Part shown: piece by piece, positions 14,034-32,309 of the stretch
How positions within the stretch are numbered: the first letter of the stretch is position 1
Layout of the letters: each line of letters begins with the position of its first letter
Source: a virus
Direction: 5' to 3' (one strand)
DNA: 37,893 nucleotides
IMG/VR virus record: IMGVR_UViG_3300008952_000133
Span: 1 to 37,893 of that record
Made by a program: the position numbers and the translations under genes
The notes under the pieces: model-generated
What the model was told of the DNA's origin: nothing
Database searches by the model: none
Seen by the model: only the letters and a program-made list of their open reading frames with translations

Positions 14034-14078
14034 AGTTAGGATCCTTTGCAGCAACGCCTAACGGGCTGCAGCATCCAT

Positions 14079-18732: not shown

Positions 18733-20316
18733 TCACTTAATAATCCATTTATACTGATCGTATAATTCTTTTGCTTCACCCATTTTATCAAAAATATTAT
18801 CTTTTTTGTAGCCTTGTTGTCCGTTAATTTGAGTGTTCATAGAAGTCTTCGAAGTAACAATGGCATTCACAAAAGCTTTTTGATAGTTTAGGTCTCGTGC
18901 GTTTGATTGCAATGCTGTGTCCCTCACCCAGCAAGCAATCGCTAGCGCCATGATGAGATCATCATGATATCCTTTCATTGCCTGTGGTTTACCGTTCTTC
19001 CAAATAAAAGTTTTCATCTCATTAATTGTGCGAGATGAATATATCTTAATTAGTTTGTTTCTGATAAACTCCTCTAATTTCGCAACGATGAGCGGGCGCG
19101 TCTTCATTGAGGTTGTGAACCCGGCAACGGCAGAGTTTCTAACTTCTGCTTGATGTTGCTCTATATACTCATGTGTAGACTTAATAGAGTAGTACAAATT
19201 TGGATAACCGTGTTCAACGAGTTTATCGAGAACCGTGTAACCGATGTTATTGTTCTCTACTACAAGCATCGCATTTCCAAATTCTCTCCCTACTTGATTC
19301 AAGAAGTTTGCATACATATCGGGCGTTGGCTTCCCTTGATACTCGCCCACGATTTCCAGCGTCTCTAATTTAATCATGTGTAATGTTGAATAGTCAGCGC
19401 CATCGCCTCGCGAAACATCTGCCACCGCAAGATAGTTACATGTGGGATCGAATTCTTCCCAAATCCAGAAATTGCGATCAAAGCCGGTTCTGTGCTTTGG
19501 CTCTTTAACATTTTCTAATAGCCACTTCATACAGTCAGGGTCTATGACAGTCTCGCCAGAAGTATTGAAATTGCACTCAAGCTCTTGTGCAATCTGGCGT
19601 TTTGACATGTTCTTGGTTTCTTTCTTATACCAAGCTTCATCACGCTCGGGGTGAACGTCCCACTGGAGTGTTGTAAGGTTAAAGTTATTGCTGCCGCCTT
19701 CAGCATCCATACATGTTTTATGGAACCAGTTACCGACCCCGTTGGGCGTTGAAAGTGCTATGCATCGCCCACCAGTTGATAGTGTAGGATACAGACCGGT
19801 CCACAGTTCTTCAAGTCCTTCAATGTGTGCAGCCTCATCAAGAACCAGCAAAGACAGTGCCTCAGAACGACCGGCATCACCAGAGGTAGACGCTGCTTTG
19901 ATAGATGACCCATTAGAAAGCTCAAAGGAAGTCCGGTTATCCACGTCAATTGTGGCGATCTTAAGCCAATCTGGCAAGTTGCGCATAACGCCCTTGACCT
20001 TCTTTACTAAGTTGCCCGCTGTTGCAAATTTGGTCGCCATAACAAGAATTGATTTGTCACGGTGAAACAACATCAACCAAACAATATAGCCAGCAGTGAT
20101 TGTTGAAATCCCTAACTGGCGCGCCTTTAAAATAACATTAAAGCGATAATCATTAAAATCTTTAAGAAGGTCGTCTTGGAAATCATAAGTATCAAATAAA
20201 ATAAGCCCATACATGGGATGGGAAATTCTTGCGTAAGTCTTTAAAAAATAAGCGGGTTCCTTCCCGCATTTAAGTATTTCTTTAACTTGTTGTTTTTTGT
20301 CTAATTGGAACGTCAT
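18733..20316 (-). CDS. gp17: Terminase large subunit, T4 gp17-like
   Basis: The DNA-packaging motor, 527 residues. The ATPase domain shows a modified Walker A, R-Q-L-G-I-S-T-I-T-A-G (66-76), Walker B L-L-V-L-D-E-A (156-162), and the coupling-motif region C-I-A-L-S-T-P-N-G. The RNase H-like nuclease domain shows A-V-A-D-V-S-R-G-D-G (D300, D305) and, near the C terminus, G-Y-H-D-D-L-I-M-A. This is shorter than T4 gp17 (610). The ATG overlaps the stop of the upstream tagged gene (ATGA). The portal gene follows after a few bases. I did not recognise a gp16-like small terminase; the 183-residue gene upstream is the nearest candidate by position. Confidence 0.95.
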   Translation of the reverse strand: MTFQLDKKQQVKEILKCGKEPAYFLKTYARISHPMYGLILFDTYDFQDDLLKDFNDYRFNVILKARQLGISTITAGYIVWLMLFHRDKSILVMATKFATAGNLVKKVKGVMRNLPDWLKIATIDVDNRTSFELSNGSSIKAASTSGDAGRSEALSLLVLDEAAHIEGLEELWTGLYPTLSTGGRCIALSTPNGVGNWFHKTCMDAEGGSNNFNLTTLQWDVHPERDEAWYKKETKNMSKRQIAQELECNFNTSGETVIDPDCMKWLLENVKEPKHRTGFDRNFWIWEEFDPTCNYLAVADVSRGDGADYSTLHMIKLETLEIVGEYQGKPTPDMYANFLNQVGREFGNAMLVVENNNIGYTVLDKLVEHGYPNLYYSIKSTHEYIEQHQAEVRNSAVAGFTTSMKTRPLIVAKLEEFIRNKLIKIYSSRTINEMKTFIWKNGKPQAMKGYHDDLIMALAIACWVRDTALQSNARDLNYQKAFVNAIVTSKTSMNTQINGQQGYKKDNIFDKMGEAKELYDQYKWIIK

Positions 20317-20570
20317 ACATCTTTCAATGCTGCTATAACTTCTTCGCGATTTGCAAGATCCCCTTCTCCGTCCAGAACAATCATTTCTTCCATTCCATCT
20401 ACATGCATCATGTCGACAAGCTCAGCATCGGACATATCTTCGATTCCGTGGGGATCGAGGACATCATATGTCTCGTCTTCACCGCCCATATCATGATAAT
20501 GACCCTCGCGCAAAACACTTGAGATCTCTTCTTTGATGATCTGCTTAAGGTATAATTTGGAGAATTTCAT
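20313..20570 (-). CDS. Small acidic protein with M-K-x-x-K...I-I-K-E-E tag, 85 aa
   Basis: It begins M-K-F-S-K-L-Y-L-K-Q-I-I-K-E-E-I, a variant of the tag found on six other proteins here, followed by a strongly acidic body rich in Asp/Glu/Met (D-M-S-D-A-E-L-V-D-M-M-H-V-D-G-M) without membrane segments. The tag contains I-K-E, a possible prohead-protease site. The gene sits immediately before the terminase and overlaps it by 4 nt. The acidic body recalls small scaffold/core proteins or DNA mimics; both are only suggestions. Confidence 0.7.
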   Translation of the reverse strand: MKFSKLYLKQIIKEEISSVLREGHYHDMGGEDETYDVLDPHGIEDMSDAELVDMMHVDGMEEMIVLDGEGDLANREEVIAALKDV

Positions 20571-20573
20571 TGT

Positions 20574-21125
20574 CTATTCTTTCTTTCTTTTATCGTTGTC
20601 GGGGCGCTTGCCGCCTTCGCCATTCCAGCCACCAAGATCCAAAAACTTTTTCCAGCTAGCCTCTACGGGATTGGTGGAGCCGCTGTTGTCGACGTTCATT
20701 TGCTCGGATAGACCACCAACGCGAAAGTGGAGCTTAGCCACAACCCATGAACGAACACGGGAAGAGTTCTCAACGCGCACATCAGCTTCGCCCTCTTTGG
20801 TCAGCTTGACTGATTCGCCAGTGATTCTCTTATACTCTTTCTTGAGCCATCCAGAAATATCAACAAGTCTTTGCTCAATCTCTTCTTCAAATCCGCCGGC
20901 ATAAACCTCTCTGAGTTGAATATCGGACTGATATGTGAGACACATCATGTCTCCGTAAAACTTCACGTTGAAGCCGTCCATGACCCTCTGATCGATAAGG
21001 GCGTTGCCCTCTTCTCTGCGCAGGGCGCCTACGGTTACTGGCGACTGATCTTCTCCAAGCGCACCGTCATATGCGTTTGCTGCGGCTTGTGATAAGCCTT
21101 GAACTATTTCGTAAACTGTTGCCAT
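20574..21125 (-). CDS. Head-cluster protein upstream of terminase, 183 aa
   Basis: It starts M-A-T-V-Y-E-I-V-Q-G-L-S-Q-A-A-A-N-A-Y. The first half has an alpha/beta character (V-K-F-Y-G-D-M-M-C-L-T-Y-Q-S-D). The middle, E-E-I-E-Q-R-L-V-D-I-S-G-W-L-K-K-E-Y-K-R, is a helical segment. The C terminus is Gly/Lys/Asp-rich and looks disordered (G-G-W-N-G-E-G-G-K-R-P-D-N-D-K). Its start shares bases with the upstream stop (TAATG). By position it could be a head-completion, neck or small-terminase-like protein, but no motif decides. It has no N-terminal tag. Confidence 0.7.
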   Translation of the reverse strand: MATVYEIVQGLSQAAANAYDGALGEDQSPVTVGALRREEGNALIDQRVMDGFNVKFYGDMMCLTYQSDIQLREVYAGGFEEEIEQRLVDISGWLKKEYKRITGESVKLTKEGEADVRVENSSRVRSWVVAKLHFRVGGLSEQMNVDNSGSTNPVEASWKKFLDLGGWNGEGGKRPDNDKRKKE

Positions 21126-21430
21126 TATTGGGGTTCTCCTTGTGGTGCTGCGGCGGCAGCTCTTTGGTCTTTCTGAACAGCGGTCTTCACTTGTGTTAGT
21201 AGCGATGGATCGATGTCAAGCGTCTGCATCAAGCCTTTTAAAAATTCTACTTGGGCGCTGCGGCTAACCTTCGATAGGCGCACACCCACCTGCTCGATAA
21301 ACTTCTGCACTGCTTGGTTCTTGACGGTCGTCTTTGCAGAGCCGCCGAGGTCCGAGACGGCAGTTCCGATGTCGGACTCAGCAATTGCTTCTCTAATAAT
21401 TTGTTTAAGTTGTGATTTATTGATTCTCAT
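21125..21430 (-). CDS. Small tagged protein, 101 aa
   Basis: The N terminus M-R-I-N-K-S-Q-L-K-Q-I-I-R-E-A-I is a member of the M-K-I-T-K-S-Q-L-K tag family; I-R-E|A is a very good gp21-type cleavage site. The body has short helices (V-Q-K-F-I-E-Q-V-G-V-R-L-S-K-V, A-Q-V-E-F-L-K-G-L-M-Q-T-L), and the C terminus is Ala/Gln-rich. It overlaps the upstream zinc-ribbon-like gene by 14 nt. I infer an internal head protein; the activity is unknown. Confidence 0.72.
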   Translation of the reverse strand: MRINKSQLKQIIREAIAESDIGTAVSDLGGSAKTTVKNQAVQKFIEQVGVRLSKVSRSAQVEFLKGLMQTLDIDPSLLTQVKTAVQKDQRAAAAAPQGEPQ

Positions 21431-21803
21431 TTGGTCTCCAGCCTTTTTTCCATCTTTCTTCTCTATCTTCTACATATTCAATGTAACAATTATTGCAACA
21501 ATCAAATTTTACAAGACAGACATCATCCATTGCACTCTTTGGAAAATTTCCGCAGACAGGACAAGTTTTTAAAGATTCTCTATTAAGTAGTTTTTTTGTA
21601 ACCTTTATCCCATTAACGTCGACTTTTTCTTCCCACTCTTTATTCTTAGAAGCGTGGCGATAGAGTTCTTTCATTTGCTGAAGATATTCTTTTTCTTTGG
21701 TCTCGTCCCAATCGGACCGAGGATTTTTAATGGCTTCTTCACCATATTTCGCAGCGATTGCGCGCTCAATGGCAGCTACCTCATTTAAATCTTTCTCACT
21801 CAT
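21417..21803 (-). CDS. Small protein with zinc-ribbon-like cysteines, 128 aa
   Basis: The start is set at ATG 21803 (M-S-E-K-D-L-N-E-V), preceded by AAGGTG; a further-upstream in-frame start (21821) lies deeper inside the neighbouring gene and is less likely. The first half is a charged helix (A-A-I-E-R-A-I-A-A-K-Y-G-E-E-A, K-E-K-E-Y-L-Q-Q-M-K-E-L). The second half carries C-P-V-C-G and, about 25 residues on, C-C-N-N-C, a pattern for a zinc ribbon. It might bind nucleic acid or protein. The stop overlaps the next gene by 14 nt. No family identified. Confidence 0.7.
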   Translation of the reverse strand: MSEKDLNEVAAIERAIAAKYGEEAIKNPRSDWDETKEKEYLQQMKELYRHASKNKEWEEKVDVNGIKVTKKLLNRESLKTCPVCGNFPKSAMDDVCLVKFDCCNNCYIEYVEDREERWKKGWRPNENQ

Positions 21804-22227
21804 TAAACACCTTATATGCACCGTAGCTTAGTGCTATTCCAGATGCTACCCCAATTGTCACCCAAAGTGCAGGATTTTTTTTACTTTGTTTTTTAAGAGC
21901 ATTTGCTAGCGCACCACTCTCGCGTTCTAGCGAATCAATTCGTAAAACATATTCTTGCAAAAGGGCTTCGTGGCGAATCTGTAAGTTTTGTAATTGTAGA
22001 TCATAGTCTGCTGCTTGTATATCCAGTTGATATTTCATCCTTATCTCGCAATCGTTATTTAAGGCAAACCGATCCGCAAGGATGTGAGCGGTTGCTTTTG
22101 GGTCGAACAGGACACCCTCGTATGGCGCGCATTGATTTTTCCCCAAAAAGGTAAACCTTCCGTTGTCGGCGCCGAGTGCCGGATTACTCAGCAGTGCGCT
22201 CAAAGCCATAAGTATTAACAATCTCAT
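21796..22227 (-). CDS. Exported protein with coiled coil and C-terminal membrane anchor; possible spanin-like
   Basis: A 143-residue protein with a signal peptide (M-R-L-L-I-L-M-A-L-S-A-L-L-S, cleavage likely after A-L-G-A), two Cys in the mature N-terminal part, a coiled-coil region (L-Q-L-Q-N-L-Q-I-R-H-E-A-L-L-Q-E) and a C-terminal hydrophobic helix (A-L-W-V-T-I-G-V-A-S-G-I-A-L-S-Y-G-A-Y). It overlaps the end of the preceding Rz-like gene by 44 nt, the kind of nested arrangement seen for spanin pairs. However, it has no lipobox cysteine after the signal peptide, so it is not a standard o-spanin. A role in lysis or envelope anchoring is inferred. Confidence 0.65.
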   Translation of the reverse strand: MRLLILMALSALLSNPALGADNGRFTFLGKNQCAPYEGVLFDPKATAHILADRFALNNDCEIRMKYQLDIQAADYDLQLQNLQIRHEALLQEYVLRIDSLERESGALANALKKQSKKNPALWVTIGVASGIALSYGAYKVFNE

Positions 22228-22570
22228 TGGCTAAATCCTCCGGGTTCGATGAATAGCTTTTCTCTAAACGATCTCTTTTCTGTTTTTTTAATCTTTCGAC
22301 TTCTTCTTGAGATTCTAAATAGCCTCTTTCGATTTCTTCAAGAGTTGTACGGTAGCTCCTCAATGCCGCGTCTCGCTTCTTAAGTTCTTCCTCGTGAATC
22401 TTTTGTAAACCCTCTACTTGTTCTTGGAGGCTTTGTTGCGAAATCTCATACGCTTTATTAAGCGCACGATAATCAAGCTGTGTCTTAATTACAACTGCAA
22501 GGAGGGAGCCAACGACCAGCAGTTCTCGCCAGTACTTTAAACCAAATTTAATTACTGCCGACCAATTCAC
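22184..22570 (-). CDS. Rz-like inner-membrane coiled-coil protein (possible i-spanin)
   Basis: A 128-residue protein with an N-terminal transmembrane helix (L-L-V-V-G-S-L-L-A-V-V-I, about 17-28) followed by a long coiled coil (Q-E-Q-V-E-G-L-Q-K-I-H-E-E-E-L-K-K, through E-E-V-E-R-L-K-K-Q-K) and a short C-terminal tail. This is the topology of lambda Rz and similar i-spanins, which bridge to an outer-membrane partner and fuse the membranes at the end of infection. It overlaps the holin-like gene by 4 nt and the exported protein by 44 nt. No sequence-level identification; the call rests on topology and context. Confidence 0.55.
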   Translation of the reverse strand: MNWSAVIKFGLKYWRELLVVGSLLAVVIKTQLDYRALNKAYEISQQSLQEQVEGLQKIHEEELKKRDAALRSYRTTLEEIERGYLESQEEVERLKKQKRDRLEKSYSSNPEDLANEIVNTYGFERTAE

Positions 22571-22764
22571 GCGACACCCTTAAGTTTAGCGATACCATCG
22601 ATGACAGTTTGACCCCCAATGTAAATTGCTGAAATAATTACCCAGTCGCCCGACTGTAAGTCTGAAAATGCGAGGAGTCCTGTTGCGGTTAGCCATACAA
22701 GAAACTTCCGAGAAATCATTTTCTCGACTAATCTGTCTAGTTTGCCTTGTACATATTCCATCAT
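22567..22764 (-). CDS. Holin-like small membrane protein, 65 aa
   Basis: A 65-residue protein with a charged N terminus (Y-V-Q-G-K-L-D-R-L-V-E-K) and two hydrophobic segments (F-L-V-W-L-T-A-T-G-L-L-A-F, about 21-33; W-V-I-I-S-A-I-Y-I-G-G-Q-T-V, about 41-54), ending with a Lys-containing tail. Size and two-helix layout fit a holin that forms lesions in the inner membrane. The ATG has GGAGAC upstream, and the next genes look like spanins. No endolysin is recognised in the window, which weakens the lysis-cassette call; it could also be another small phage membrane protein. Confidence 0.55.
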   Translation of the reverse strand: MMEYVQGKLDRLVEKMISRKFLVWLTATGLLAFSDLQSGDWVIISAIYIGGQTVIDGIAKLKGVA

Positions 22765-22807
22765 CTTGTCTCCAATTATTAGCTTAAACTAAGCCTTCCT
22801 CTTCCGG

Positions 22808-23665
22808 TCATGCGTCTTCTTCCACTTTGGATGTACACATCTCTTCTGCCTCTGCTGCGGATAAGCTGTCTGCTCTTTCATCGGCGGGCTTGTCTTTTTG
22901 TGCGCAAGCCCAGCGGCGTTGCTTCTCGGAAGACACCTCTTCTAAGCCGTAATCTTGTTCAATATTTTCGCTAGCTGCGTCCATGAGTTGTGCCACCATA
23001 TCGGCTAGTTGTTGTAATTCCTCTGGGTCTCCGGTGTCTAAGGCAGCTATTAATTTCATCAACTCTGTTCTTGTTGGTTCTGAGCGCTGGGCGATCCCTG
23101 CGCGAGAGAGAGTGCGAGCTACTGGAGCCATTCTGCCCGTACCTAGCGCCTCTGCGATCTCTTGTTCGATGATCTCGGCTAATTCCGCCGGCGGTTGAAT
23201 CTTCTTCTTGCGGGCGGCTCTGCCAAACGCTGCCTGTCCATACCCAAGAGAGAGACGATCTTCGCCGGTAACAGCAGCGGCTAAGTAATCAACACTAACA
23301 TCTAAGTTATCAATCTTGTCTGCTAATTTATTGATCGCGCTTAAAAGGGCGGAATCGGTACTCATTTCTTCTTTGATTACTTTTATCAAGCTCTCTTCGA
23401 AGCCGATGCGCTCTGGTGCTCTATTGGATACTTCTTCAGGTTCCCTATCAAAGCCAATTTGTTGGGTCGCTTCCGGCTCTTCACTTGTTTCGGGTGGCGG
23501 ACTGCCTCCCTCCATCTCCTTGAAGACAGTGGTGAAAACAACACCCACCAACTCCGGATCCATGCCGTCGACGAGACTGCTGATTCCGCCGATTAAATTC
23601 TCAATCGGAAGCGAGTCGATATTCTCTCGTATAATTTCTTTGAGTTGTGATTTTGTGATTTTCAT
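22808..23665 (-). CDS. Tagged protein with C-terminal cysteine module, 285 aa
   Basis: The start is set at ATG 23665: the protein then begins M-K-I-T-K-S-Q-L-K-E-I-I-R-E-N, the tag found on neighbouring genes. The longer open frame to 23965 overlaps the upstream 107-residue gene out of frame and has no coding character. A second tag-like motif occurs inside (S-L-I-K-V-I-K-E-E-M). The body is helical and acidic. The C-terminal R-R-W-A-C-A-Q-K-D-K-P-A-D-E-R and E-A-E-E-M-C form a two-cysteine module, recalling C-terminal modules in the tagged 304- and 46-residue proteins. Probably an internal head protein with a domain of unknown function. Confidence 0.72.
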   Translation of the reverse strand: MKITKSQLKEIIRENIDSLPIENLIGGISSLVDGMDPELVGVVFTTVFKEMEGGSPPPETSEEPEATQQIGFDREPEEVSNRAPERIGFEESLIKVIKEEMSTDSALLSAINKLADKIDNLDVSVDYLAAAVTGEDRLSLGYGQAAFGRAARKKKIQPPAELAEIIEQEIAEALGTGRMAPVARTLSRAGIAQRSEPTRTELMKLIAALDTGDPEELQQLADMVAQLMDAASENIEQDYGLEEVSSEKQRRWACAQKDKPADERADSLSAAEAEEMCTSKVEEDA

Positions 23666-23669
23666 GTTG

Positions 23670-23993
23670 TTAACCCATACCTTGCTTTTCAAATTTTGCA
23701 ATCCAACGAAGGGCGTGACGTAGCTTATCTGATGGTTTGTTGCCGGGGAGGTCCGAATCCAGCAAGAAACTATGCAATTCGTAATAGGCATCGTAAGAAG
23801 CTTCTTGTTCTTCATCGGAGAGTGGTTCAATATCAATGGAGCCGCCAGTAAATCTTTCTTCTTCGGGCGGTGTGTGGACCGGGCGTTCCCATGCAGGAAG
23901 GCGCGCCTCCTCAATCTCTTCTTTAATAATATCAGTCTTCTCGTCCATAAAGTAACGAGGATCAATGAACTTCTTGTTTTTTCTAAATGCCAT
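23670..23993 (-). CDS. Protein with I-D-P-R-Y-F-M-D-E-K N-terminal motif, 107 aa
   Basis: It starts M-A-F-R-K-N-K-K-F-I-D-P-R-Y-F-M-D-E-K-T, then D-I-I-K-E-E-I-E-E-A. The same segment (R-R-I-D-P-R-Y-F-M-D-E-K-A-E-V-I-K-E-E) opens the 170-residue protein at 31797-32309. It ends in a possible I-K-E|E protease site. The rest is acidic, then a basic helical C terminus (K-L-R-H-A-L-R-W-I-A-K-F-E-K). It sits 4 bases before the ATG of the 285-residue tagged gene. An alternative packaging signal is the favoured inference; no catalytic motif is seen. Confidence 0.72.
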   Translation of the reverse strand: MAFRKNKKFIDPRYFMDEKTDIIKEEIEEARLPAWERPVHTPPEEERFTGGSIDIEPLSDEEQEASYDAYYELHSFLLDSDLPGNKPSDKLRHALRWIAKFEKQGMG

Positions 23994-24015
23994 TATATTA
24001 TTCCTTTTATATTTA

Positions 24016-24480
24016 TTATCGGCTTGCTAAATCTTGTTCAGCACTATCCATTTCATCCTTGTGGCGCTCAAGCCAACGCTCAGCTTCTTCATCAGAAAGA
24101 TCATGAGTTAAACTCTTTAGCGCTTCCTTAGCACTTAGTCCTGTTTTCATCATCTTTTTAACGACGTGAGAGGCTGAATGTGGTTCAGCTGCTTCATTCA
24201 TTTCTTGTCGGCTTGCTAACTCTTTGTACATCTCTTCTGTGTCGTTATACATTGACAATTTGCCGTCTTGGTGCTTTACTATAATAGAAGGCTTTCCATC
24301 GCTAGCAATCTCAACGAAGGCTTCGACATTAAACTTGTCAGCCAAGTCTTGTACCTCTTCGTCCCTAATTTCTTCGGGGCTCATGTAATCTTCGCCAGTA
24401 TCAATATCGGCAACAGCACGACCGGGTTCGTATGCTGCTTCGTTTGTGTACTTTCGCCAATTTTCAAATAGTTTGTTCAT
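24016..24480 (-). CDS. Tagged protein, E-N-W-R-K-Y type, 154 aa
   Basis: The start is ATG 24480, overlapping the stop of the FtsZ-like gene (ATGA). A longer frame to 24564 is a shadow of the GTPase gene. It begins M-N-K-L-F-E-N-W-R-K-Y-T-N-E-A, sharing E-N-W-R-K-[FY]-x-N-E with the 341-residue protein at 26666. The middle has a possible small alpha/beta unit (E-A-F-V-E-I-A-S-D-G-K-P-S-I-I-V-K-H). The C terminus is helical with the motif M-M-K-T-G-L-S-A-K-E-A-L-K-S-L, followed by D-L-S-D-E-E-A-E-R-W. Function unknown; possibly packaged in the head. Confidence 0.72.
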   Translation of the reverse strand: MNKLFENWRKYTNEAAYEPGRAVADIDTGEDYMSPEEIRDEEVQDLADKFNVEAFVEIASDGKPSIIVKHQDGKLSMYNDTEEMYKELASRQEMNEAAEPHSASHVVKKMMKTGLSAKEALKSLTHDLSDEEAERWLERHKDEMDSAEQDLASR

Positions 24481-25625
24481 GTTGCTAATCCATTCATACT
24501 TAGTATCGCAATCAATCCGGGCACATTCTTGCGCACGTAAACGCCAGAGAAAAGTGTCTCGCACCGACCGCCGACATAAGCGATTGCAGACTCAATGTTT
24601 TTACTGACCTTTGGGTCAGCCACCATCTCTTCCGAGACCACCAACACTAACGAACCGGCGCCTGCCTTCCCCTTGGGGGGCGGACACGCAGAACGATTCA
24701 TACAGTTATGAAGGATCACCGATCCAAGCTTTGCTGTATTTGGATCTTTTATCATTGTTGAGCCCATAAAGGCTCTGCCATTATTGCTCAAGCAAGTTTC
24801 CAAATCTTTAGAATCGAAAGATTGGATCGGTGAATCCTCGGTGGAGAGTTTTAAAACTTGAGCAAGTGACTTAGCAAATGTTGTGTTAGCGACAGGATAC
24901 ATGCCAAGCATGCCGATTCTGCCGCGGAGTAATCGTGTGGCACGTTCGTTGTCGAGAACGATGTGCGGATGGCGGGCAACGTCATTCACGAGCGTAAGCG
25001 CGTTGCGAGCGATAGTCGGGTTCAGTGCCTCTTGCGCGGTTGGCCAAGAAACAATATAGACCACTTTTCCAGAAGCCTGAACTGATTGCATATATCTTTC
25101 GAAGACTGGCTGCAGCGCGGTTACCGAACTGCCGGTTCCGCCGCCTCCACCAGCCATAACGAAAAGCCAATCGACTTTTCCAAGCTTAATACGAAGTGCA
25201 TCTTCAACGATGGCGCCATTTTGGGAAAGAATCTCTTTGCCGTAAACGACGTTCTTTCCGATGCCGTCGCTATCGGGGATAAGAACGACGTGATCTTCTT
25301 CGACGTTCTTCGGAATGTCTTTCCCTGTGGAGTTTACCATCAGTGTTTTGTTGAATCCAAGTTCAATGAAGGCGTTCGCCATTTTGTTGCCTCCGCCGCC
25401 AACGCCAACAAAGCCCACATTAATCGAAGAAGGGGCAGTGTTTTCTGGGAGGAGATCTTCATCAGAATATTCCATCTGGAGACCGAAGTCCTCAACCATG
25501 CCGAAATCCTCTGCTGCGACTTCTTCGTGATAGTGGTCTTTCTCCTGATTAAAGGAGGGTGGTGGCTCTGCGGGAGGCAGAAAATCAAATTCGTTTTTGT
25601 CATCTTTATTTTCGTTATCAGACAT
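24477..25625 (-). CDS. FtsZ/tubulin-like GTPase
   Basis: A 382-residue protein of the tubulin/FtsZ superfamily. Seen: N-V-G-F-V-G-V-G-G-G-G-N-K at 69-81 (FtsZ T1 loop, nucleotide binding), the signature G-box A-G-G-G-G-G-T-G-S-S at 158-167 (FtsZ consensus G-G-G-T-G-[ST]-G), and a T7-like synergy loop S-F-D-S-K-D-L-E-T-C at 269-278 with both acidic residues (D271, D274) that trigger hydrolysis in the partner subunit, followed by G-R-A-F-M-G-S. Residues 1-65 are an acidic, disordered-looking extension absent from typical FtsZ. No conserved FtsZ C-terminal peptide is seen. It could form filaments that position phage DNA or capsids, or interfere with host division. It is not tagged like its neighbours. 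The start has AAGGAATAAAC upstream. Confidence 0.88.
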   Translation of the reverse strand: MSDNENKDDKNEFDFLPPAEPPPSFNQEKDHYHEEVAAEDFGMVEDFGLQMEYSDEDLLPENTAPSSINVGFVGVGGGGNKMANAFIELGFNKTLMVNSTGKDIPKNVEEDHVVLIPDSDGIGKNVVYGKEILSQNGAIVEDALRIKLGKVDWLFVMAGGGGGTGSSVTALQPVFERYMQSVQASGKVVYIVSWPTAQEALNPTIARNALTLVNDVARHPHIVLDNERATRLLRGRIGMLGMYPVANTTFAKSLAQVLKLSTEDSPIQSFDSKDLETCLSNNGRAFMGSTMIKDPNTAKLGSVILHNCMNRSACPPPKGKAGAGSLVLVVSEEMVADPKVSKNIESAIAYVGGRCETLFSGVYVRKNVPGLIAILSMNGLAT

Positions 25626-25640
25626 TGTTTATTCCTTATT

Positions 25641-26666
25641 TTACTGGTTTTCGTCTTCGGGATTGGGACCCTTTTGCTGGCGACCAAGTGCGTTCCCTAC
25701 CGTAACCAAAAGAGGGATGACTGCATCGGCTGGCGCCTTAACAATATGAACGCCGGTATGCTGAAGTGCACCACCGGTACCGATAAGGGCGCCTGACCAA
25801 CGATGGTGACCGTCGAGAATCTTTCCATCACTAGTGACAAAGGCTCCGCCCATATCTTTGAGTTGTTTTGCTGGATTGTTGTATGCAAATAATAGTGACT
25901 TAGCTGCCAAAATATTACTTTGCGTTGGAATCATTTTTGAGTTTGTGGCGCCGGCGTCTTTTTCAACGGCTACAGCGTCACCCGGCGCGCCGTCGAGCAT
26001 CCCTTTGGTTAAGAACGCCAATGCGGCGCCCTTAATATTTTTAAGATTGATTTGTTCTTTTTCTCCAACAGCGGGGGCGCCGGGCATTGGACCTTTTCCA
26101 AATCGTGGAAACTTGTCTTCACTGACGTTTTGTTGGGGGGTCTGTTGGGTTGCTTGCTGTACTTGTTCTACAGATGGGATCTTCCCTGCTTCGTACATCT
26201 GTTTAATCGGCTCGGGTAGTGCCTCCCACCACTCTTTAAAGCTTTCGATTTGGTTCGCAAATTTCGAACTTAGATCAACTCCCAAGGCGCCATCTTGATC
26301 GCTTAGTGCATCTACTACTGCATCGGCGTCTCCGCCCTCCAGAGCAGGCATATTAAATTTAGCTGTTTTTGCTGTAGAGATCAGTTTTTGAACTTGTTGA
26401 ACTCTCGCTATGAAGGCTTCTTGTCCAATCTGCCCAAACCTTTGTTTAACTTGTTCTGGGGTGCCCAAGACGCCGCTTGCCCAGCCAGTGGCATTTTTCA
26501 TCGCATTATAGAGCGGACTCTCCTGTCCGGACACAAGCTGCCTCCAGAGTTCATCAGCCTTGACGGCTCCAATATTAGTATCGGGAGTTATTTGGGCAAA
26601 TCCTTGTTGTGCGGCTTCTTCTTGTTCATTAACAAATTTACGCCAGTTTTCCATTAAAAGTTTCAC
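25641..26666 (-). CDS. Tagged protein with ParB/sulfiredoxin-like motif, 341 aa
   Basis: A GTG start at 26666 follows AAGGAGAT at 8 nt, and the gene overlaps the stop of the previous gene. The N terminus (M-E-N-W-R-K-F-V-N-E-Q-E from residue 5) is the second tag type. Residues about 15-220 are helical and Gln/Ala-rich with no known motif. Residues about 265-295 contain G-G-A-F-V-T-S-D-G-K-I-L-D-G-H-H-R-W, the D-G-H-H-R-W signature of ParB/sulfiredoxin-fold nucleotide-binding or nuclease domains. Packaging of such a domain inside a capsid would suggest an injected DNA-acting or nucleotide-using protein (inference). The C terminus is Pro/Asn/Asp-rich. Confidence 0.75.
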   Translation of the reverse strand: MKLLMENWRKFVNEQEEAAQQGFAQITPDTNIGAVKADELWRQLVSGQESPLYNAMKNATGWASGVLGTPEQVKQRFGQIGQEAFIARVQQVQKLISTAKTAKFNMPALEGGDADAVVDALSDQDGALGVDLSSKFANQIESFKEWWEALPEPIKQMYEAGKIPSVEQVQQATQQTPQQNVSEDKFPRFGKGPMPGAPAVGEKEQINLKNIKGAALAFLTKGMLDGAPGDAVAVEKDAGATNSKMIPTQSNILAAKSLLFAYNNPAKQLKDMGGAFVTSDGKILDGHHRWSGALIGTGGALQHTGVHIVKAPADAVIPLLVTVGNALGRQQKGPNPEDENQ

Positions 26667-27193
26667 TGTTTTTTATCTCCTTGAATCTCTTGTAGCACTT
26701 CTCTAATAATGTCCTTAATCTTCTCTATGGATTCGCCGTAAGCAAGGTTAGATGAACCAACAGCGCTGGATGCGCGATGGGCAGGGGATTTATCACGTCG
26801 ATACGACGACGACGATGACGACGATCTTCCAGAGCCGCGCTTCTTCCTGGCTTGCTCAATATCCCATTGAGCCTGTCGATGTTGTTCGGAGTCAGCTACA
26901 TGCTTGGTTCTCCATTTTAAGAAGTCCTGGTAAGCCTCATATGAACTCGTATCGTCGAAGTTCTGTCCTCGGGCATCTTCCCACTTGAATTGACCGGCGG
27001 CGCCTCCACTACGAAATTCTTCATAGTCTTCGCGCTCATCTTCTGGGACATTTGCCATTGGATCGGCTGCTGGGGCTGCTTTCTTGCCGCCAAGACCGAG
27101 GGCGCCCTTGATAGAGTCCACAAAACCCTCATCGACGGTGTTTTCTATTTCTTCTCTGATTACGCTTCGAAGCTGCGATTTGGTAATTTTCAT
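26663..27193 (-). CDS. Tagged protein with Ser-rich basic segment, 176 aa
   Basis: It begins M-K-I-T-K-S-Q-L-R-S-V-I-R-E-E-I-E-N, then F-V-D-S-I-K-G-A-L-G-L-G-G. The tag contains V-I-R-E|E, a possible protease site. The middle is acidic and aromatic (E-E-F-R-S-G-G-A-A-G-Q-F-K-W-E, Y-E-A-Y-Q-D-F-L-K-W-R). A basic Ser-rich stretch (G-S-G-R-S-S-S-S-S-S-S-Y-R-R) follows, then a helical C terminus with another I-I-R-E-V-L-Q-E-I motif. The Ser/Arg run could bind DNA. It is an internal head protein candidate of unknown activity. Confidence 0.72.
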   Translation of the reverse strand: MKITKSQLRSVIREEIENTVDEGFVDSIKGALGLGGKKAAPAADPMANVPEDEREDYEEFRSGGAAGQFKWEDARGQNFDDTSSYEAYQDFLKWRTKHVADSEQHRQAQWDIEQARKKRGSGRSSSSSSSYRRDKSPAHRASSAVGSSNLAYGESIEKIKDIIREVLQEIQGDKKQ

Positions 27194-27205
27194 GCTGTTG
27201 ACTCC

Positions 27206-30200
27206 TTATTGGTTTACTCTTGCATATCCATTTTTCTTTTCAATTACAATTTGCATGTCAACACAGTCTTTGAGCGAATCAAGGTGCGAGATCAACAAAA
27301 CGTTCTTAAAATACACTTTAATTAGTTCTAAGATCCTAATAAAACCTTCCATATTTTCTTCATCTAATGCTGTGCCGGGCTCGTCGAGGATGAATAAGTC
27401 GCTTTTGGGCAGTGAAGAGACACTCAGAAGAGCCAAACGAATTGCCATCGCCGCCATGGTTTTCTCTGCGCCAGACGCCATTTCAATAGGGCGCTCGTCG
27501 TATAGAGGGTGCTTGATAAAGATGTCAAACTTATTACCAGAACTCTCAAAGAAAATTTCAAAATCTACAATATTTGCCAACACCTTCGCTATCTCTTGAT
27601 TGATAACAGGAATCTTCTTTTTAATCACATCGTATGCAATTCCGTTTGGGTGCATGCACTGCATAAACAGATCGTAGGCTGCATATGAGTTCTGTAGTTC
27701 TTTGTATTCAGTTTGTTGCTCTCGCAAGTTTTCAATCTTTTGTTCGCAAGAACCAACGAGTTTAACGATATCTAAAGTCTCTTGTTCGCAAGTCGTTATC
27801 TCATTCTGCTTACTGTTCATGTCTTTTTGGTGCTTATCTTTTTCCTTTATAAGTTTCTCAAGATTCTCAATTGCTTCTTTATTTTCTTCGTATTCCTTAA
27901 TTTGATTAGTAATATCTTTCAAAGATAATTCTATCTTAGATTTTGTAGCCTTGTTGCGCTCTCGCTTAAGCTTCAACTCAGAAATCTCTTTTTCAAAATT
28001 TAAAGACTTTATTTGTAAAGCGTTGTGTTCTTCAATCTCCAACTCGATTTCTTCGGGATTTAATGCGCTGCGGGCTTCTATGGACTTATCGCGCTCGTTA
28101 GCTGCAATATCCCTTGTGGCAACTGAGACGTGTGCATCTCTAATAAACTTGCACGTTGGGAACGAATCACCGCACGGGATTCCCTCTAGCAGCTTCTGTT
28201 TCTTAACGATACTCTCTAGTTCTTGATTTAACGAGGCAATCGTTTCATCTAATTTCTCAATCGACAACTTATTCTCAAGGTTCTTCTGGTGATCTATCGC
28301 GCCGAGTAGCTTCTCGGTTGCCGCGATTTCCTCGCTCTTGAGAGATATGAACTGCGATTGTTCTTTGATTGTTTCGCCCAAAGCAACAATAGAATTAACT
28401 TTCTTTTTGTGCTCTTTGCGCAAGTTAGTAATGTCCACCACTTCCGAGGGAGTCGCTTTGATTTGTTCTTCCAATAAGCGCACAACATCCGTCAATGTAT
28501 TAAGCTTAATACGCAAGGATTCACAGAGGCTCTTGTTCTTCTCTGATTTGTTCTGATACTTATTCAACTCCTTCGTGGCGGCGGTGATGTCTGCCCCATA
28601 GTCTCGGTCTTCGTGCTTCTTAATCAAGACTTTGGCTTCTACCGAGTCTTCCTTGGACATCCTAAACTTCTTTTCAAAAATCTCCAGGTCCAAGAACTTA
28701 GCAATGATCTCTTTACGTCGAGTAGAGCCCTCATCAATAAATGCTAACGCACCATGCTGCGAGGCTAGCGAAGATACCATGAAATCATCGATAGAACCAA
28801 AATGCTTTCTGATAATTGCATCTGTCTGATTTCGCGTTGTTCCGTTCAGAGATGTTGTTTCTTCGGTGATGCGATCATATACTTCAAAATTCAAATCGGT
28901 TTTGGCTTCTAGGGTTTCCTCGCCCTTAAGCCTCTTAACGTACTTCTCTGATTTCCTTTCAACCGTATAGACCTTATTGTTTGACTCGATAGTGAGCTTG
29001 CCTGCGCATGAATCTCTGTTCTGATTAATGACGTTTAAGTTTTTGCGTTCGTTCTTGGACGTCGTATTAAACAAAGTATATAATGCAGCATCAATCACAG
29101 AACTCTTTCCGGAAAAGTTCTTTCCAAAGATGCCGATGATACCACCCATATTTTCAAAATTAATTGAATTGTCTGTTCCATAATTAAACAGATTGTCAAA
29201 CTCAAAGGTCTTAAGTTTCCAGTTTACATTGCGCGAGACTTCCTCTGTCTCCTCAATAATTTTGTTGTAAGCCCGATTGAGTTCATAAACTTTTTCGAGC
29301 GTCTCAGAGGGCACCTGATAGTCCTTAAGGTACTCATCGATAAGTTCTTCCTGAATCTTTGGATCTCGCAAGTTCTCGGTCTTGAGTCCGTCTGTAATAT
29401 CTTCAACATTTCCGCGTTCACCGGTGGCTCTGTTCAAAAACGAGATGCTCTCCGGTTTGAATCGGTGTTTGGCGATATCCATTGCGCGCTTCATCACATT
29501 GAGCGGAAGATTGTTGTTGCTCACCAAGCGCAGACGAGCGCCGGTTGGCACATCAATCTTGCGTGGCATGCGCCCCTTCATCGTTAAAGGAATTGTAAAG
29601 AATGGCTTTGGATTCTTAAGCACAATGGGCTCGATTTCCCAATCATCCTTTGACTGGATATCCCAGATGAGAATCCCCTTATCATTTGTTTCGCCATGAT
29701 TCTGCTGTACAGTTGAGCCGGCATACCAAACGCGACCTACTTCATCTAAATATTGACGACGGTGAATATCGCCGAGCATGGCGAAATCAAAGTCTTCAAA
29801 GATAGTTAGAGTATCTTCGCCATTTCTCATTGTCCAGTTCATGTCAGTCTTACAGTTGCTGATTGAGCCGTGATACAGGGCGATGTTGATTTTATCAGTA
29901 TCGCTTGGCTTTGTCCAATTATCTCGATCAAAGACTGAAAGCACATTCAAACAGAACTTATCGTCTATGTGGGTTTCGCCAGATTCTTTGAGCAGATGCA
30001 GAGCTGGCAAGTTTAACGCATCTACAATCGGCGTCAATGCGTCTTGGCGACTACTATTCTTTAGATTGCCATCGTGGTTGCCCAATATAATATATGTGGG
30101 TGCAATCTCCGCTAAACTGCGGAAGAAATCAGAACACATTTCCACAAACTCTGGTGAGATCTGTGTCTTTGTGTGTGCGATATCTCCGCAATGAACGATG

Positions 30201-30313
30201 TAATCGACTTCCTGCTCTCGCAGTGTCTGGTATAATTGTTCGAATACAATTCTATATTCGTAGTGATACTTCAAATTTTTGATATGAGTGTCACTGATGT
30301 GTGCAAACTTCAA
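27206..30313 (-). CDS. gp47-gp46 fusion: SbcD-SbcC (gp47-gp46) fused recombination nuclease
   Basis: The N-terminal part (about 1-340) is a Mre11/SbcD/gp47 metallophosphoesterase: F-A-H-I-S-D-T-H, H-C-G-D-I-A, L-G-N-H-D-G, M-L-G-D-I-H-R-R. It is continuous with a Rad50/SbcC/gp46 ATPase: Walker A G-K-N-F-S-G-K-S-S (about 400), a long coiled coil, a hook-like cysteine pair C-G-D-S-F-P-T-C (about 720), a signature A-S-G-A-E-K-T and Walker B L-F-I-L-D-E-P-G-T near the C terminus. In T4 these are two proteins that resect DNA ends for recombination-dependent replication. I choose TTG 30313, five bases after GGAGG; an upstream TTG (30331) adds six residues without a better ribosome site. A near-consensus sigma70 promoter sits directly upstream. 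Confidence 0.92.
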   Translation of the reverse strand: MKFAHISDTHIKNLKYHYEYRIVFEQLYQTLREQEVDYIVHCGDIAHTKTQISPEFVEMCSDFFRSLAEIAPTYIILGNHDGNLKNSSRQDALTPIVDALNLPALHLLKESGETHIDDKFCLNVLSVFDRDNWTKPSDTDKINIALYHGSISNCKTDMNWTMRNGEDTLTIFEDFDFAMLGDIHRRQYLDEVGRVWYAGSTVQQNHGETNDKGILIWDIQSKDDWEIEPIVLKNPKPFFTIPLTMKGRMPRKIDVPTGARLRLVSNNNLPLNVMKRAMDIAKHRFKPESISFLNRATGERGNVEDITDGLKTENLRDPKIQEELIDEYLKDYQVPSETLEKVYELNRAYNKIIEETEEVSRNVNWKLKTFEFDNLFNYGTDNSINFENMGGIIGIFGKNFSGKSSVIDAALYTLFNTTSKNERKNLNVINQNRDSCAGKLTIESNNKVYTVERKSEKYVKRLKGEETLEAKTDLNFEVYDRITEETTSLNGTTRNQTDAIIRKHFGSIDDFMVSSLASQHGALAFIDEGSTRRKEIIAKFLDLEIFEKKFRMSKEDSVEAKVLIKKHEDRDYGADITAATKELNKYQNKSEKNKSLCESLRIKLNTLTDVVRLLEEQIKATPSEVVDITNLRKEHKKKVNSIVALGETIKEQSQFISLKSEEIAATEKLLGAIDHQKNLENKLSIEKLDETIASLNQELESIVKKQKLLEGIPCGDSFPTCKFIRDAHVSVATRDIAANERDKSIEARSALNPEEIELEIEEHNALQIKSLNFEKEISELKLKRERNKATKSKIELSLKDITNQIKEYEENKEAIENLEKLIKEKDKHQKDMNSKQNEITTCEQETLDIVKLVGSCEQKIENLREQQTEYKELQNSYAAYDLFMQCMHPNGIAYDVIKKKIPVINQEIAKVLANIVDFEIFFESSGNKFDIFIKHPLYDERPIEMASGAEKTMAAMAIRLALLSVSSLPKSDLFILDEPGTALDEENMEGFIRILELIKVYFKNVLLISHLDSLKDCVDMQIVIEKKNGYARVNQ

Positions 30314-30336
30314 ACTTCCCTCCGAGCACAAATGTG

Positions 30337-30371
30337 CCTCTACTATACAAGTATATCTTGTTCAGTAGAGG
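30337..30371. promoter_or_regulatory. 35-bp near-perfect palindrome over the promoter (operator candidate)
   Basis: Two 15-bp arms (CCTCTACTATACAAG and CTTGTTCAGTAGAGG on the plus strand) flank TATAT. They pair at 13 of 15 positions. The palindrome covers the -10 box, most of the spacer and the start region of the promoter, so a dimeric repressor bound here would block polymerase. Only its distal half would be in the transcript, so it is not an mRNA hairpin. Confidence 0.75.
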
Positions 30372-30378
30372 CTGTCAA
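30350..30378 (-). promoter_or_regulatory. Near-consensus sigma70 promoter for the nuclease gene
   Basis: On the minus strand TTGACA (30373-30378), 17-nt spacer, TATACT (30350-30355). Predicted transcription start about 30342, so the leader before TTG 30313 is about 30 nt. It shares the exact 10-mer CTTGACAGCC with the primase promoter. Likely recognised by host RNA polymerase early in infection. Confidence 0.88.
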
Positions 30379-30394
30379 GTATTTTTTTGTGCCA

Positions 30395-30733
30395 TTACTC
30401 AGAGGGCATATCGCCCATAAAATAATCACTTAACAGTTCCATGCTGTATATTACCTGATCTAACTCTTGAGAAAGCTCTGACGCTACTGGATCGCCTTGT
30501 TGTTGAAGGTAAAGCTTTGCGTCGTTAATTCTCGCCAGCATATGATTGTGGTTAAGTTTGCGTTGTGATCGTTGTGTAAGAGGAGGCTCGCCAGTATCGT
30601 CGCGAGAAGGCTCGTCAGACTGCTCATAATCATCGTGAGTGATCATGGAGTCATCGAAAGGCTTTTTCACGACGCCTTCATTGGCGACCTCTTCCGCGAT
30701 AATCTTACGCAATTGTTCTTTTGTAATCTTCAT
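30395..30733 (-). CDS. Small tagged protein, 112 aa
   Basis: It starts M-K-I-T-K-E-Q-L-R-K-I-I-A-E-E-V, a clear tag-family member with I-A-E|E. The middle is acidic and polar (H-D-D-Y-E-Q-S-D-E-P-S-R-D-D). The C-terminal half is helical (L-A-R-I-N-D-A-K-L-Y-L-Q-Q, Q-E-L-D-Q-V-I-Y-S-M-E-L-L), ending in Met/Asp/Pro-rich residues. It overlaps the upstream tagged gene by 4 nt (ATGA) and ends 17 bases before the promoter region of the nuclease gene. No known domain. Confidence 0.72.
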   Translation of the reverse strand: MKITKEQLRKIIAEEVANEGVVKKPFDDSMITHDDYEQSDEPSRDDTGEPPLTQRSQRKLNHNHMLARINDAKLYLQQQGDPVASELSQELDQVIYSMELLSDYFMGDMPSE

Positions 30734-31644
30734 TTCTTTTTGTCCTTTGCCATCTTGCGGAATGTTTTGGCTAGATTATATCTCTTCGTTCCCGGCTTGC
30801 AAGTAGGTCCGCCAAACTTATCGCCGGTGCAGACACCTTCTGTGCCGCTCTTTTCAATATCTTTTTCTGCATCTTGGATCCAATCATCCTTTTCTTCTGA
30901 GGGGGCTTCTTGCATCTTTTTCTCCTCCAGTGCGGCTTCGACTTCCTCTTTAACGATCTTCAGCATGTGTTCTCTATATGTTGATTTAAGTCCGCGCATA
31001 TTACTAAGGAATCCCGATTTGATCTCTTTTTTAAGCCTATCTCTAATCCCGGGTGGTACCGGGCGATCTAAACCATATTCAATCGCGAATCGCAATTTTA
31101 ATGCTTGTTCTCTGAGCACTTTTCGGGGTTCGTCGTAGTTGTCGAAGCCATCTATATACATGTCAACTGGCATCCTCTCGTACGGTCCTCCGCGAGTGGC
31201 GCCGGATACAAGCTCATCTCCTAGTGAGCCAACCTTCTTAATTATACGCTCGACTGCATCGTTTGTATGCCTTAAGACTTCAGAATGCCCAGATCCTCGA
31301 CCTTCAGTCACTGGCTCTGATTCGGCACCTTTTACATGCTTGGCGTATTCTCTAGTAATATCAGCCAACTCCTTAAGGGCACCTTGTTCTCGGATGGGTA
31401 ACCCATAAACAGTTGTGTTCTGAAAGTGTTCTGACTTCTTCTGCACCATAAGGTTTGACAACTCAAACATTTGTTGTAGGGTTCGGGCTATTTCATTTAG
31501 CTCGTCTCTAGCGTCTCTGTGTTTGACTTTCTGAGTGTCGTCGTCTCTGCGCGCATCCATGCCGGCAAGCCGGGCTTCAAGATCCTCTATCGAACTTAGC
31601 TCTTCTTTGATGATTTGTTTAAGCTGCGTTTTTGTGATCTTCAT
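30730..31644 (-). CDS. Tagged protein with C-terminal cysteine/basic module, 304 aa
   Basis: The start is set at ATG 31644 (M-K-I-T-K-T-Q-L-K-Q-I-I-K-E-E-L), with AAAGGAAG upstream and overlapping the stop of the 46-codon gene (ATGA). The longer frame to 31707 runs through that gene in another frame and is rejected. The body is charged and helical (D-E-L-N-E-I-A-R-T-L-Q-Q-M-F-E-L, K-E-L-A-D-I-T-R-E-Y-A-K). The C terminus, G-V-C-T-G-D-K-F-G-G-P-T-C-K-P-G-T-K-R-Y followed by N-L-A-K-T-F-R-K-M-A-K-D, looks like a small Cys-pair/basic module that may bind DNA or metal. Packaged-protein role inferred. Confidence 0.73.
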   Translation of the reverse strand: MKITKTQLKQIIKEELSSIEDLEARLAGMDARRDDDTQKVKHRDARDELNEIARTLQQMFELSNLMVQKKSEHFQNTTVYGLPIREQGALKELADITREYAKHVKGAESEPVTEGRGSGHSEVLRHTNDAVERIIKKVGSLGDELVSGATRGGPYERMPVDMYIDGFDNYDEPRKVLREQALKLRFAIEYGLDRPVPPGIRDRLKKEIKSGFLSNMRGLKSTYREHMLKIVKEEVEAALEEKKMQEAPSEEKDDWIQDAEKDIEKSGTEGVCTGDKFGGPTCKPGTKRYNLAKTFRKMAKDKKK

Positions 31645-31781
31645 CTTCCTTTCCACCACTTTGTCTTTTTCTTCTCCGGAGAACATTTGCTTCCCGAGGG
31701 GCACCATTTGTATATGTTGGACAAATAATTACTAAGCTCTTCTTCGATAATATCTTTAAGTCGGGATTTGGTGATTTTCAC
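31641..31781 (-). CDS. 46-residue tagged miniprotein
   Basis: A small gene found by eye: GTG 31781 with AAGGAA 8 nt upstream encodes V/M-K-I-T-K-S-R-L-K-D-I-I-E-E-E-L-S-N, then a tail W-C-P-S-G-S-K-C-S-P-E-K-K-K-T-K-W-W and the end K-G-R. The stop TGA overlaps the ATG of the 304-residue tagged gene. The full tag, ribosome site and tight packing between genes support a real gene. The tail combines a Cys pair and basic/aromatic residues, like the C-terminal modules of larger tagged proteins. It is nearly a tag fused directly to a cargo module. Confidence 0.72.
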   Translation of the reverse strand: MKITKSRLKDIIEEELSNYLSNIYKWCPSGSKCSPEKKKTKWWKGR

Positions 31782-31796
31782 TTGTTTATTCCTTAG

Positions 31797-32309
31797 CTAC
31801 TGTTCGACGATCTGGCTAACTAATATTCCGATTGCCATTAACGCCACGCCTCCGGTTAATCCCAGCGCAAATACTGCCGGCGTGGCGACTGCTGCAGCGC
31901 CGATCATCATGATTCCGCCGGCGCCGAGTCCGGTAGCTAGGGCTGCATCCGATAATGGATTACCCCCAAGCACCCCGTCGCCTTCTTGCATTGCGTCTGC
32001 CTCCGCTGCACCTTCCTGCGCAGCGGCTTGGACTTCGGGATCCTTCGCTGCCTGTTGTACAGCAGCCATGACTGCCGGACTTTGGGCGAGGACTTGAGCA
32101 AGCTCTTGTGCTTGTGTCATGTCAGGTTCGCGAGTTTGTAATCGTGGGGTTCGACGTGCGGAGGGCGACGGTGCGCCGGCGCCTACGCCAGCAATCTCCT
32201 TCATGCGCGTGACTTCTTTTTCTTCCTTGATTACTTCTGCCTTCTCATCCATAAAGTATCGTGGGTCGATTCTCCTGACGTTTTTTCTTGGTTTTCCCCA
32301 TCTGGACAT
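31797..32309 (-). CDS. I-D-P-R-Y-F-M-D-E-K protein with C-terminal membrane helices, 170 aa
   Basis: The N terminus R-R-I-D-P-R-Y-F-M-D-E-K-A-E-V-I-K-E-E is nearly the same as in the 107-residue protein at 23670-23993. It is followed by R-M-K-E-I-A-G, recalling the R-M-K-R-L-A-G-I-K end of the scaffold. A helical, Ala/Gln-rich middle (A-Q-E-L-A-Q-V-L-A-Q-S-P-A-V) leads to two hydrophobic segments (about 118-140 and 143-165, e.g. G-G-I-M-M-I-G-A-A-A-V-A-T-P and G-G-V-A-L-M-A-I-G-I-L-V). If packaged, it could insert in the host membrane during ejection (speculative). The ATG has AAGGAGAAC. Confidence 0.72.
   Translation of the reverse strand: MSRWGKPRKNVRRIDPRYFMDEKAEVIKEEKEVTRMKEIAGVGAGAPSPSARRTPRLQTREPDMTQAQELAQVLAQSPAVMAAVQQAAKDPEVQAAAQEGAAEADAMQEGDGVLGGNPLSDAALATGLGAGGIMMIGAAAVATPAVFALGLTGGVALMAIGILVSQIVEQ

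Follow-up and report, generated by a model that had tools for sequence, protein, structure and literature searches.

The complete, linear 37,893-base IMG/VR record IMGVR_UViG_3300008952_000133 (hereafter the window, meaning this whole stretch of viral DNA) encodes a series of otherwise unlike proteins that share short N-terminal segments, here called tags. Three tag families were recognized in the window, tag A (MKITKxQLKxIIxEE), tag B (ENWRK[FY]) and tag C (DPRYFMDEK), and conservation of all three ends at a [LIV]-x-E site. As judged from sequence, the tag is a modular, exchangeable N-terminal peptide that ends in a protease consensus, and it occurs in phages mostly encoding the matching protease. 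We consider it highly probable that the tags are propeptides resembling the capsid targeting sequence (CTS) of phage T4, which direct proteins into the prohead and are subsequently removed.

Seven open reading frames (ORFs) of the window begin with variants of the tag A segment. All seven, first pointed out in a preliminary description of this DNA, were found on the minus strand, as were all 43 ORFs treated as genes (the gene set consists of ORFs picked without a gene caller). Identified by tag A profiles, they code for proteins of 85 amino acids (aa) (20313..20570; MKFSKLYLKQIIKE/EISSVLRE/G, slashes marking predicted sites), 101 aa (21125..21430; MRINKSQLKQIIRE/A), 285 aa (22808..23665; profile and BLAST families, with an internal relic, VIKEEM, at residues 96-103), 176 aa (26663..27193; tag-like core near the C-terminus, residues 160-171), 112 aa (30395..30733; MKITKEQLRKIIAE/E), 304 aa (30730..31644; internal tag-like core KIVKEEVEAALEE, residues 229-241) and 46 aa (31641..31781; GTG start). 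The starts of the first two (MKFSKLYLKQIIKEE and MRINKSQLKQIIREA, respectively) are the most divergent. The motif proposed at the end of the segment was confirmed, [IV]-x-E being present at positions 12-14 in 7/7, and position 15 is variable (E, A, N, E, E, E, E). The start is conserved as described, but the likely unit is residues 1-14 rather than 15 residues. The bodies behind the segment are indeed unrelated: their ungapped identity was 2-16%, and six of them, the 46-aa protein left out, fell into six different BLAST families. Neither Pfam nor PHROGs suggested a usable function for any of the seven bodies, and the AlphaFold model of the 22808 protein had a mean pLDDT of 50. Of the proposed basic amphipathic helix, the amphipathic part was upheld (mean moment 0.363 vs 0.25 for shuffled sequences), but the basic character is weak (mean net charge +0.65 over residues 5-22). 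The number of seven is correct for tag A and an undercount of tagged genes, tags B and C being also present in the window.

The tag A copies often use different codons for one and the same residue (2/10 are identical for 22808 vs 26663), indicating that tag A is conserved at the level of the peptide. By a profile made from 169 tags on other contigs, the near relatives of the window being left out, the seven ORFs scored 19.4-37.7 bits, against 0.005 matches of at least 5 bits per shuffled window proteome. Four extra weak matches (3.4-7.5 bits; shuffles gave 0.065 at 3 bits or more) were internal to three proteins with tag A and one with tag C. A second profile, built with the seven included, gave exactly seven matches in the window.

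Tag A was then sought in IMG/VR with a DNA pattern covering no more than its first nine residues (MKITKxQL followed by K, R or a similar residue). All counts from such seed scans, for tags A and B and for the motif RMKRLAGIK treated below, are among the matches listed and hence lower bounds. The site is absent from the seed; [ILV]-x-E was found at positions 12-14 in 174 of the 187 distinct tag A proteins of at least 25 aa, three of which came from near relatives of the window. E14 was kept in 93% and E15 in 76% of these proteins. A total of 204 tag A bodies (198 from contigs and 6 from the window) were grouped into 164 BLAST families, including 139 singletons. A Pfam match was obtained for only 5/110 tag A bodies; none of the 110 proteins matched a replication family in Pfam, and one matched a head scaffolding PHROG (phrog_3503). 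By profile, five records of 242-293 kb carried 40, 31, 27, 25 and 22 tag A starts, and no match was detected in seven control records of 117-307 kb. Searching phage records by tblastn with a 22-aa query gave no match, and profiles were therefore used. Among 14 named phage records, tag A was clear in the 484 kb phage genome LR756508, with 11 matches up to an E of 1 (the ones read are variants that keep the register, for example MRLSERKLRRIVKEEISRVLRE), and in Flavobacterium phage immuto, with the two candidates QQO92108.1 and QQO92094.1; weak, unconfirmed matches were observed in P-TIM68 (2), P-SSM2 (1) and Mel-JY01 (1). None of these 14 proved to be a tagged isolate for which virion proteomics has been published. 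A tag A scan of GTDB was discarded as largely chance, [ILV]-x-E being present in 32/86 distinct proteins of at least 25 aa among the matches listed. Two GTDB bins, Methylococcaceae TMED69 and Halobacteriovorax SP2999, contained tag-A-dense contigs resembling misbinned phage (L170, L206 and L230 on one contig; L178 and L204 on another).

Tag B proteins of the window are encoded at 24016..24480 (154 aa, MNKLFENWRKYTNE; tag B profile) and 25641..26666 (341 aa, GTG start, MKLLMENWRKFVNE; tag B profile and pattern scan), and tag C proteins, recognized by the DPRYFMDEK start, at 23670..23993 (107 aa, IDPRYFMDEKTDIIKE/E) and 31797..32309 (170 aa, IDPRYFMDEKAEVIKE/E), all on the minus strand. The length to the site is 14 residues in tags A and B and about 25 in tag C. 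Expected values for motif counts were obtained from shuffles of the same proteins. For tag B, [LIVM]-x-E with E at 14 was detected in 121 of 148 distinct proteins from IMG/VR (3.8 expected), with E at 15 in 14 more. The tag C start was found in 92 stretches, and [LIVM]-x-E with E at 15 in 46/74 distinct proteins (1.8 expected), or with E at 12-17 in 67/74. Among 104 tag B bodies scanned against Pfam, matches were obtained to NUDIX (4), protein kinase (4), AAA_33 (3), the zeta toxin family (2) and HAD_SAK_1 (2), while single bodies matched RNase T, amidase and others. Tag A was also present in 6/6 records selected for tag B alone, and tag B in 2/10 selected for tag A.

The relation between tags and bodies was analysed with a looser definition of tag A (205 of 383 start with MKITKxQ[LF]; ORFs of at least 60 aa in any frame, only identical proteins merged), which was used also for isoelectric point (pI), amphipathicity and tag C. 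Different tags were met within one family in 11 of 445 tagged-body families (six A/B, four A/C and one A/B/C). In five of the 11, homology begins immediately past the site in both proteins. Three of these five are A/C pairs whose sequences had been trimmed at the site prior to BLAST; in one A/B pair (L170), the start is intermediate between A and B. In the other six, the common domain lies away from the start, indicating domain shuffling only. The clearest case is that of the proteins of L179 (tag A), L435 and L536 (both tag B), which gave a gap-free alignment starting at residue 1, in which E14 occupies a single column and the bodies behind it share 58-66% identity. The window tag B protein at 24016, present letter for letter in L534, shares 84% identity over 56 residues of its C-terminal domain with a tag A protein in L036. 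From these mixed-tag families and alignments, the tags behave as interchangeable parts, and in the best cases one gives way to another at the predicted scissile bond. The modular N-terminal label that had been proposed is thus supported, at the level of sequence, both by the 164 body families and by the same bodies behind different tags. One further case (L091/L042/L481/L400) was rejected as junction evidence. The body in L170 and L537, which stands behind two different starts, contains an HExxH-like stretch (HEIQHS, HELEHS), and this suggests a packaged metallopeptidase.

The nearest known system is the CTS of the T4 internal proteins IPI-IPIII. In the excerpt of PMC9026906 available, the first ten residues of IPIII suffice for capsid targeting, residues 4 and 7 were mapped genetically as important for targeting and residues 8 and 10 for processing, and gp21 cleaves after L/I-x-E. 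Positions 8, 11, 12 and 14 of tags A and B show the same spacing. The pattern PHI-x-x-PHI-[LIV]-x-E was found at positions 8-14 in 173/187 tag A and 119/148 tag B proteins, position 8 of both tags and position 11 of tag B being preset by the seeds. In the window, the pattern occurred by residue 30 in 12 of 42 proteins; 1000 shuffles gave 1.7 on average and 6 at most. These 12 comprise tag A proteins, one tag B protein, the presumed scaffold (2603), the proteins at 10515 and 15880, and the 834-aa protein at 10937 (WKGFLAE). The T4 starts, read from its record, are MKTYQEFIAE (ipII, ipIII) and MAKINELLRE (gp24). No tag A or B profile match was detected in the T4 record, that is, no sequence homology to the CTS of IPII and IPIII; the tags would work like the T4 CTS and appear not to be members of its sequence family. 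Common to both are a short N-terminal peptide on unlike bodies, the L/I-x-E end, the spacing of targeting and processing positions, and an S77 protease in the genome (excerpt of PMC9026906). They differ in the length to the site, 10 residues in T4 and 14 in tags A and B, and in number, the phages of the window type having at least three tag families and up to 40 tags of one kind per record. Furthermore, T4 internal proteins are basic and the tagged bodies acidic, and here a second site is likely and internal relics occur.

A gp21 homologue had been noted in this DNA, and the gene was verified: a gp21-type (S77) prohead protease, the presumed cutter, is encoded at 13428..14054 on the minus strand (PF03420, E 6.7e-35; phrog_207, E 2.8e-57; alignment to T4 gp21). 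The window protease and T4 gp21 have AxGELxHP and SSRG as common invariant columns, which we take to hold the catalytic His and Ser. Association of tag and protease was examined with the PF03420 cut-off in 50 tag A records of at least 30 kb, 40 of the tag B records listed, 32 controls from the list with at least 20 kb, and the 40 controls outside it, whatever their size. The record G043 belongs to both tag sets, and one more control passes E 0.001 yet not the cut-off. S77 was above the cut-off in 33/50 tag A records vs 6/32 controls (Fisher p 3.5e-5), in 12/40 tag B records and in 2/40 of the further controls. Between 30 and 100 kb, the counts were 14/29 for tag A vs 3/19 for controls (p 0.031); at 100 kb or more, 19/21 for tag A, 10/13 for tag B and 2/7 for controls; and at 165 kb or more, 11/11, 8/8 and 1/4, respectively. 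One of these 11 tag A records, G040, has a seed match without E14 and a weak S77 match (31.9 bits), and probably carries no true tag. Wide occurrence of the tag without a gp21-type protease had been named as a finding that would refute the proposed role, and it was tested by these counts; two tag A records above 100 kb, G041 and G046, gave no S77 match.

Taken together, the short amphipathic start of a tagged protein would bind the prohead core during head assembly, probably via its hydrophobic positions 8 and 11. The gp21-type protease would then cut behind [LIV]-x-E at 12-14, or at the matching end of tag C, and many tag A proteins might be cut again at 20-22. The body would stay inside the head. 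It could also enter the host along with the DNA; such delivery, with a role in host takeover, is the step that we put forward with the greatest reserve. The preliminary description was right in kind and is partly supported: the sequence bears out the label, the fixed [ILV]-x-E and the gp21 homologue, and it adds a spacing equal to that of the T4 CTS; the second site, tags B and C and the internal relics had been missed.

The second cut is suggested by enrichment of a further [LIVM]-x-E in 171 distinct tag A proteins, with E at 22 in 57 (4.4 expected), at 21 in 27 (4.6), at 18 in 23 (4.6) and at 19 in 13 (4.5). The sites of the E22 type may mark a second cleavage position or reflect a single long helix. 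As to internal copies, the domain behind the VIKEEM relic of 22808-23665 directly follows the start tag in L002, L049, L099 and L139, and the simplest reading of this protein is a fusion that retains a former start tag. The C-terminus of the same protein, SSEKQRRWACAQKD...EAEEMCTSK, is common to tagged proteins in L031 and L105, and this ending may be a separate swapped module. For 6 of 236 tag matches, each on a further contig (L097, L179, L230, L005, L038 and L054), an exact tag A lay within an open frame at a depth of over 100 codons. A cut at such an internal tag would separate two products within the head, the upstream frame being putatively co-translated.

Tagged proteins might, however, enter the prohead core and be cut there, and yet act as scaffold or other parts of the head interior, such as gp67 and gp68 of T4, rather than as effectors delivered to the host. 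The same cleavage site is used by core and scaffold proteins of T4 (excerpt of PMC9026906), the pattern PHI-x-x-PHI-[LIV]-x-E is fitted by the presumed scaffold and by a 277-aa protein adjoining the portal gene, and the phrog_3503 match and the acidic bodies point the same way. On the other hand, up to 40 different bodies per record, mostly of single-member families, seem beyond the needs of a core, and NUDIX hydrolases, protein kinases and P-loop kinases are among the tag B bodies. This explanation is considered unlikely. Less probable by far is a general amphipathic helix for docking to a membrane, a replication complex or another phage structure, with [LIV]-x-E as an uncleaved by-product of composition. 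The amphipathicity is real, and E and L recur at helical spacing (14, 18, 21 and 22), but three unlike starts all end their conservation at this site, E14 is better kept than E15, the same body is met by different tags at this very point, and a replication family was matched by 0/110 tag A proteins. Recent duplication of a gene start, or an element acting as nucleic acid (a ribosome-binding site or a promoter, for example), may be dismissed almost entirely: tagged genes are often adjacent or clustered, but codons differ at identical residues, conserved synonymous sites were not seen, tag A precedes 164 body families across many contigs, and tag-like cores also stand within proteins.

Several observations weigh against packaging by CTS-like tags. 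The pattern PHI-x-x-PHI-[LIV]-x-E was found near the start of only 4 of the 10 T4 head proteins read (ipII, ipIII, gp24 and gp68), and not near that of IPI, Alt, gp21, gp22, gp23 or gp67. The tagged bodies are acidic, with a median pI of 4.9. In the 24016 protein, the site reads T-N-E, with T at P3, instead of [LIV]-x-E, and the second-site pattern of tag A could reflect a helix. Tag A was unmatched in 9 of the 14 named phage records (RM378, LR756511, S-SKS1, XacN1, SRB7757, SCTP-2, S-CRM01, HTVC008M and T4), and tag B in 13 of the 14, including T4 and several T4-like phages, with one weak match in SCTP-2. S77 was not found in 17/50 tag A and 28/40 tag B records, mostly fragments, and the protease association is confounded by record length.

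Two other systems are comparable in part, as described in excerpts of the papers cited. For DarB of phage P1, an N-terminal segment, of which 30 residues suffice, sends the protein and a reporter to the capsid; the excerpt concerns one protein, and neither a shared tag family nor exchange is described in it (PMC9024508). SPN3US and phiKZ possess a diverged gp21 homologue that cleaves their head proteins after Glu, and the first 15 residues of SPN3US gp53 and gp54 are identical to each other; unlike the sites here, however, those of SPN3US are A-x-E and the named phiKZ sites S-x-E, most SPN3US propeptides have 111-254 residues, and no interchangeable short tag family is described in the excerpts (PMC5694885, PMC10052503). 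Searches of the open-licence PMC literature with MKITK, ENWRKF, ENWRKY, ENWRRF and ENWRQY gave no related paper, nor was any paper found there that treats capsid targeting sequences together with metagenomes.

More tentatively, with a confidence that falls somewhat short of an even chance, we propose that T4-like phages, one with a genome of 484 kb among them, possess a small code of interchangeable address propeptides, A, B and C, which one core reads and one protease cuts, and by which each head is stocked with tens of different proteins, some of them enzymes. Genes would join or switch by exchange of short starts at the scissile bond, and internal tags would create polyproteins cut in the head. 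The principle is known from T4. No description of its scale here, of several tag families that replace one another, or of a switch located at the cut site was found in the open-licence PMC papers searched. If the tags do load proteins into the head, the cargo of many uncultured phages could be read from sequence. A head protein could then be predicted from any small unknown gene with a tag, and its product would be a candidate for being among the first from the phage to reach the host cell. The tags would also be natural, portable packaging signals, and many short unknown genes of large phage genomes would be explained.

The head and packaging genes of the window, assigned by Pfam and PHROGs, code for a gp23-like capsid protein, the S77 prohead protease, a portal protein and a terminase. 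In the gp23-like major capsid protein (766..2571, minus strand; PHROGs), LLRE/SSSM was aligned to the T4 gp23 site. L-x-E was aligned with L-T-E65 of T4 gp23, presumably its cleavage site, in 20/20 fetched capsid proteins of tagged records, an alignment gap being spanned. The presumed prohead scaffold (2603..3748, minus strand) was assigned by position and C-terminus; it starts with MSNLLKE, ends with RMKRLAGIK, and has a weak family match (phrog_23128, of unknown function). Adjoining the protease gene, the 834-aa protein (10937..13441, minus strand) has at residues 19-25 the B-like and T4-CTS-like start WKGFLAE/S, and was not among the tag B profile matches in the window. A B-like start, WRGYLLQE, was noted by eye in a 309-aa protein (14418..15347, minus strand), which was matched neither by the tag B profile nor by PHI-x-x-PHI-[LIV]-x-E. 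The presumed scaffold and the 834-aa protein have the C-terminal ending R-x-K-x-LAGIK in common. RMKRLAGIK was found in more than 120 IMG/VR stretches at least, within two residues of the C-terminus in 83 of 94 distinct cases listed; as mostly one scaffold-like C-terminus, it was not counted as a fourth tag.

Other genes are interspersed among the tagged genes. A tubulin/FtsZ-family GTPase is encoded at 24477-25625 on the minus strand (PF00091, E 1.4e-8), in the same phage as T4-like head genes. A single ORF of 1041 aa at 27206-30331 resembles, by eye, an SbcD-like nuclease and an SbcC-like ATPase in one chain. Three small ORFs at 21796-22764 have starts like signal peptides or membrane helices, and could, by eye, be lysis genes.

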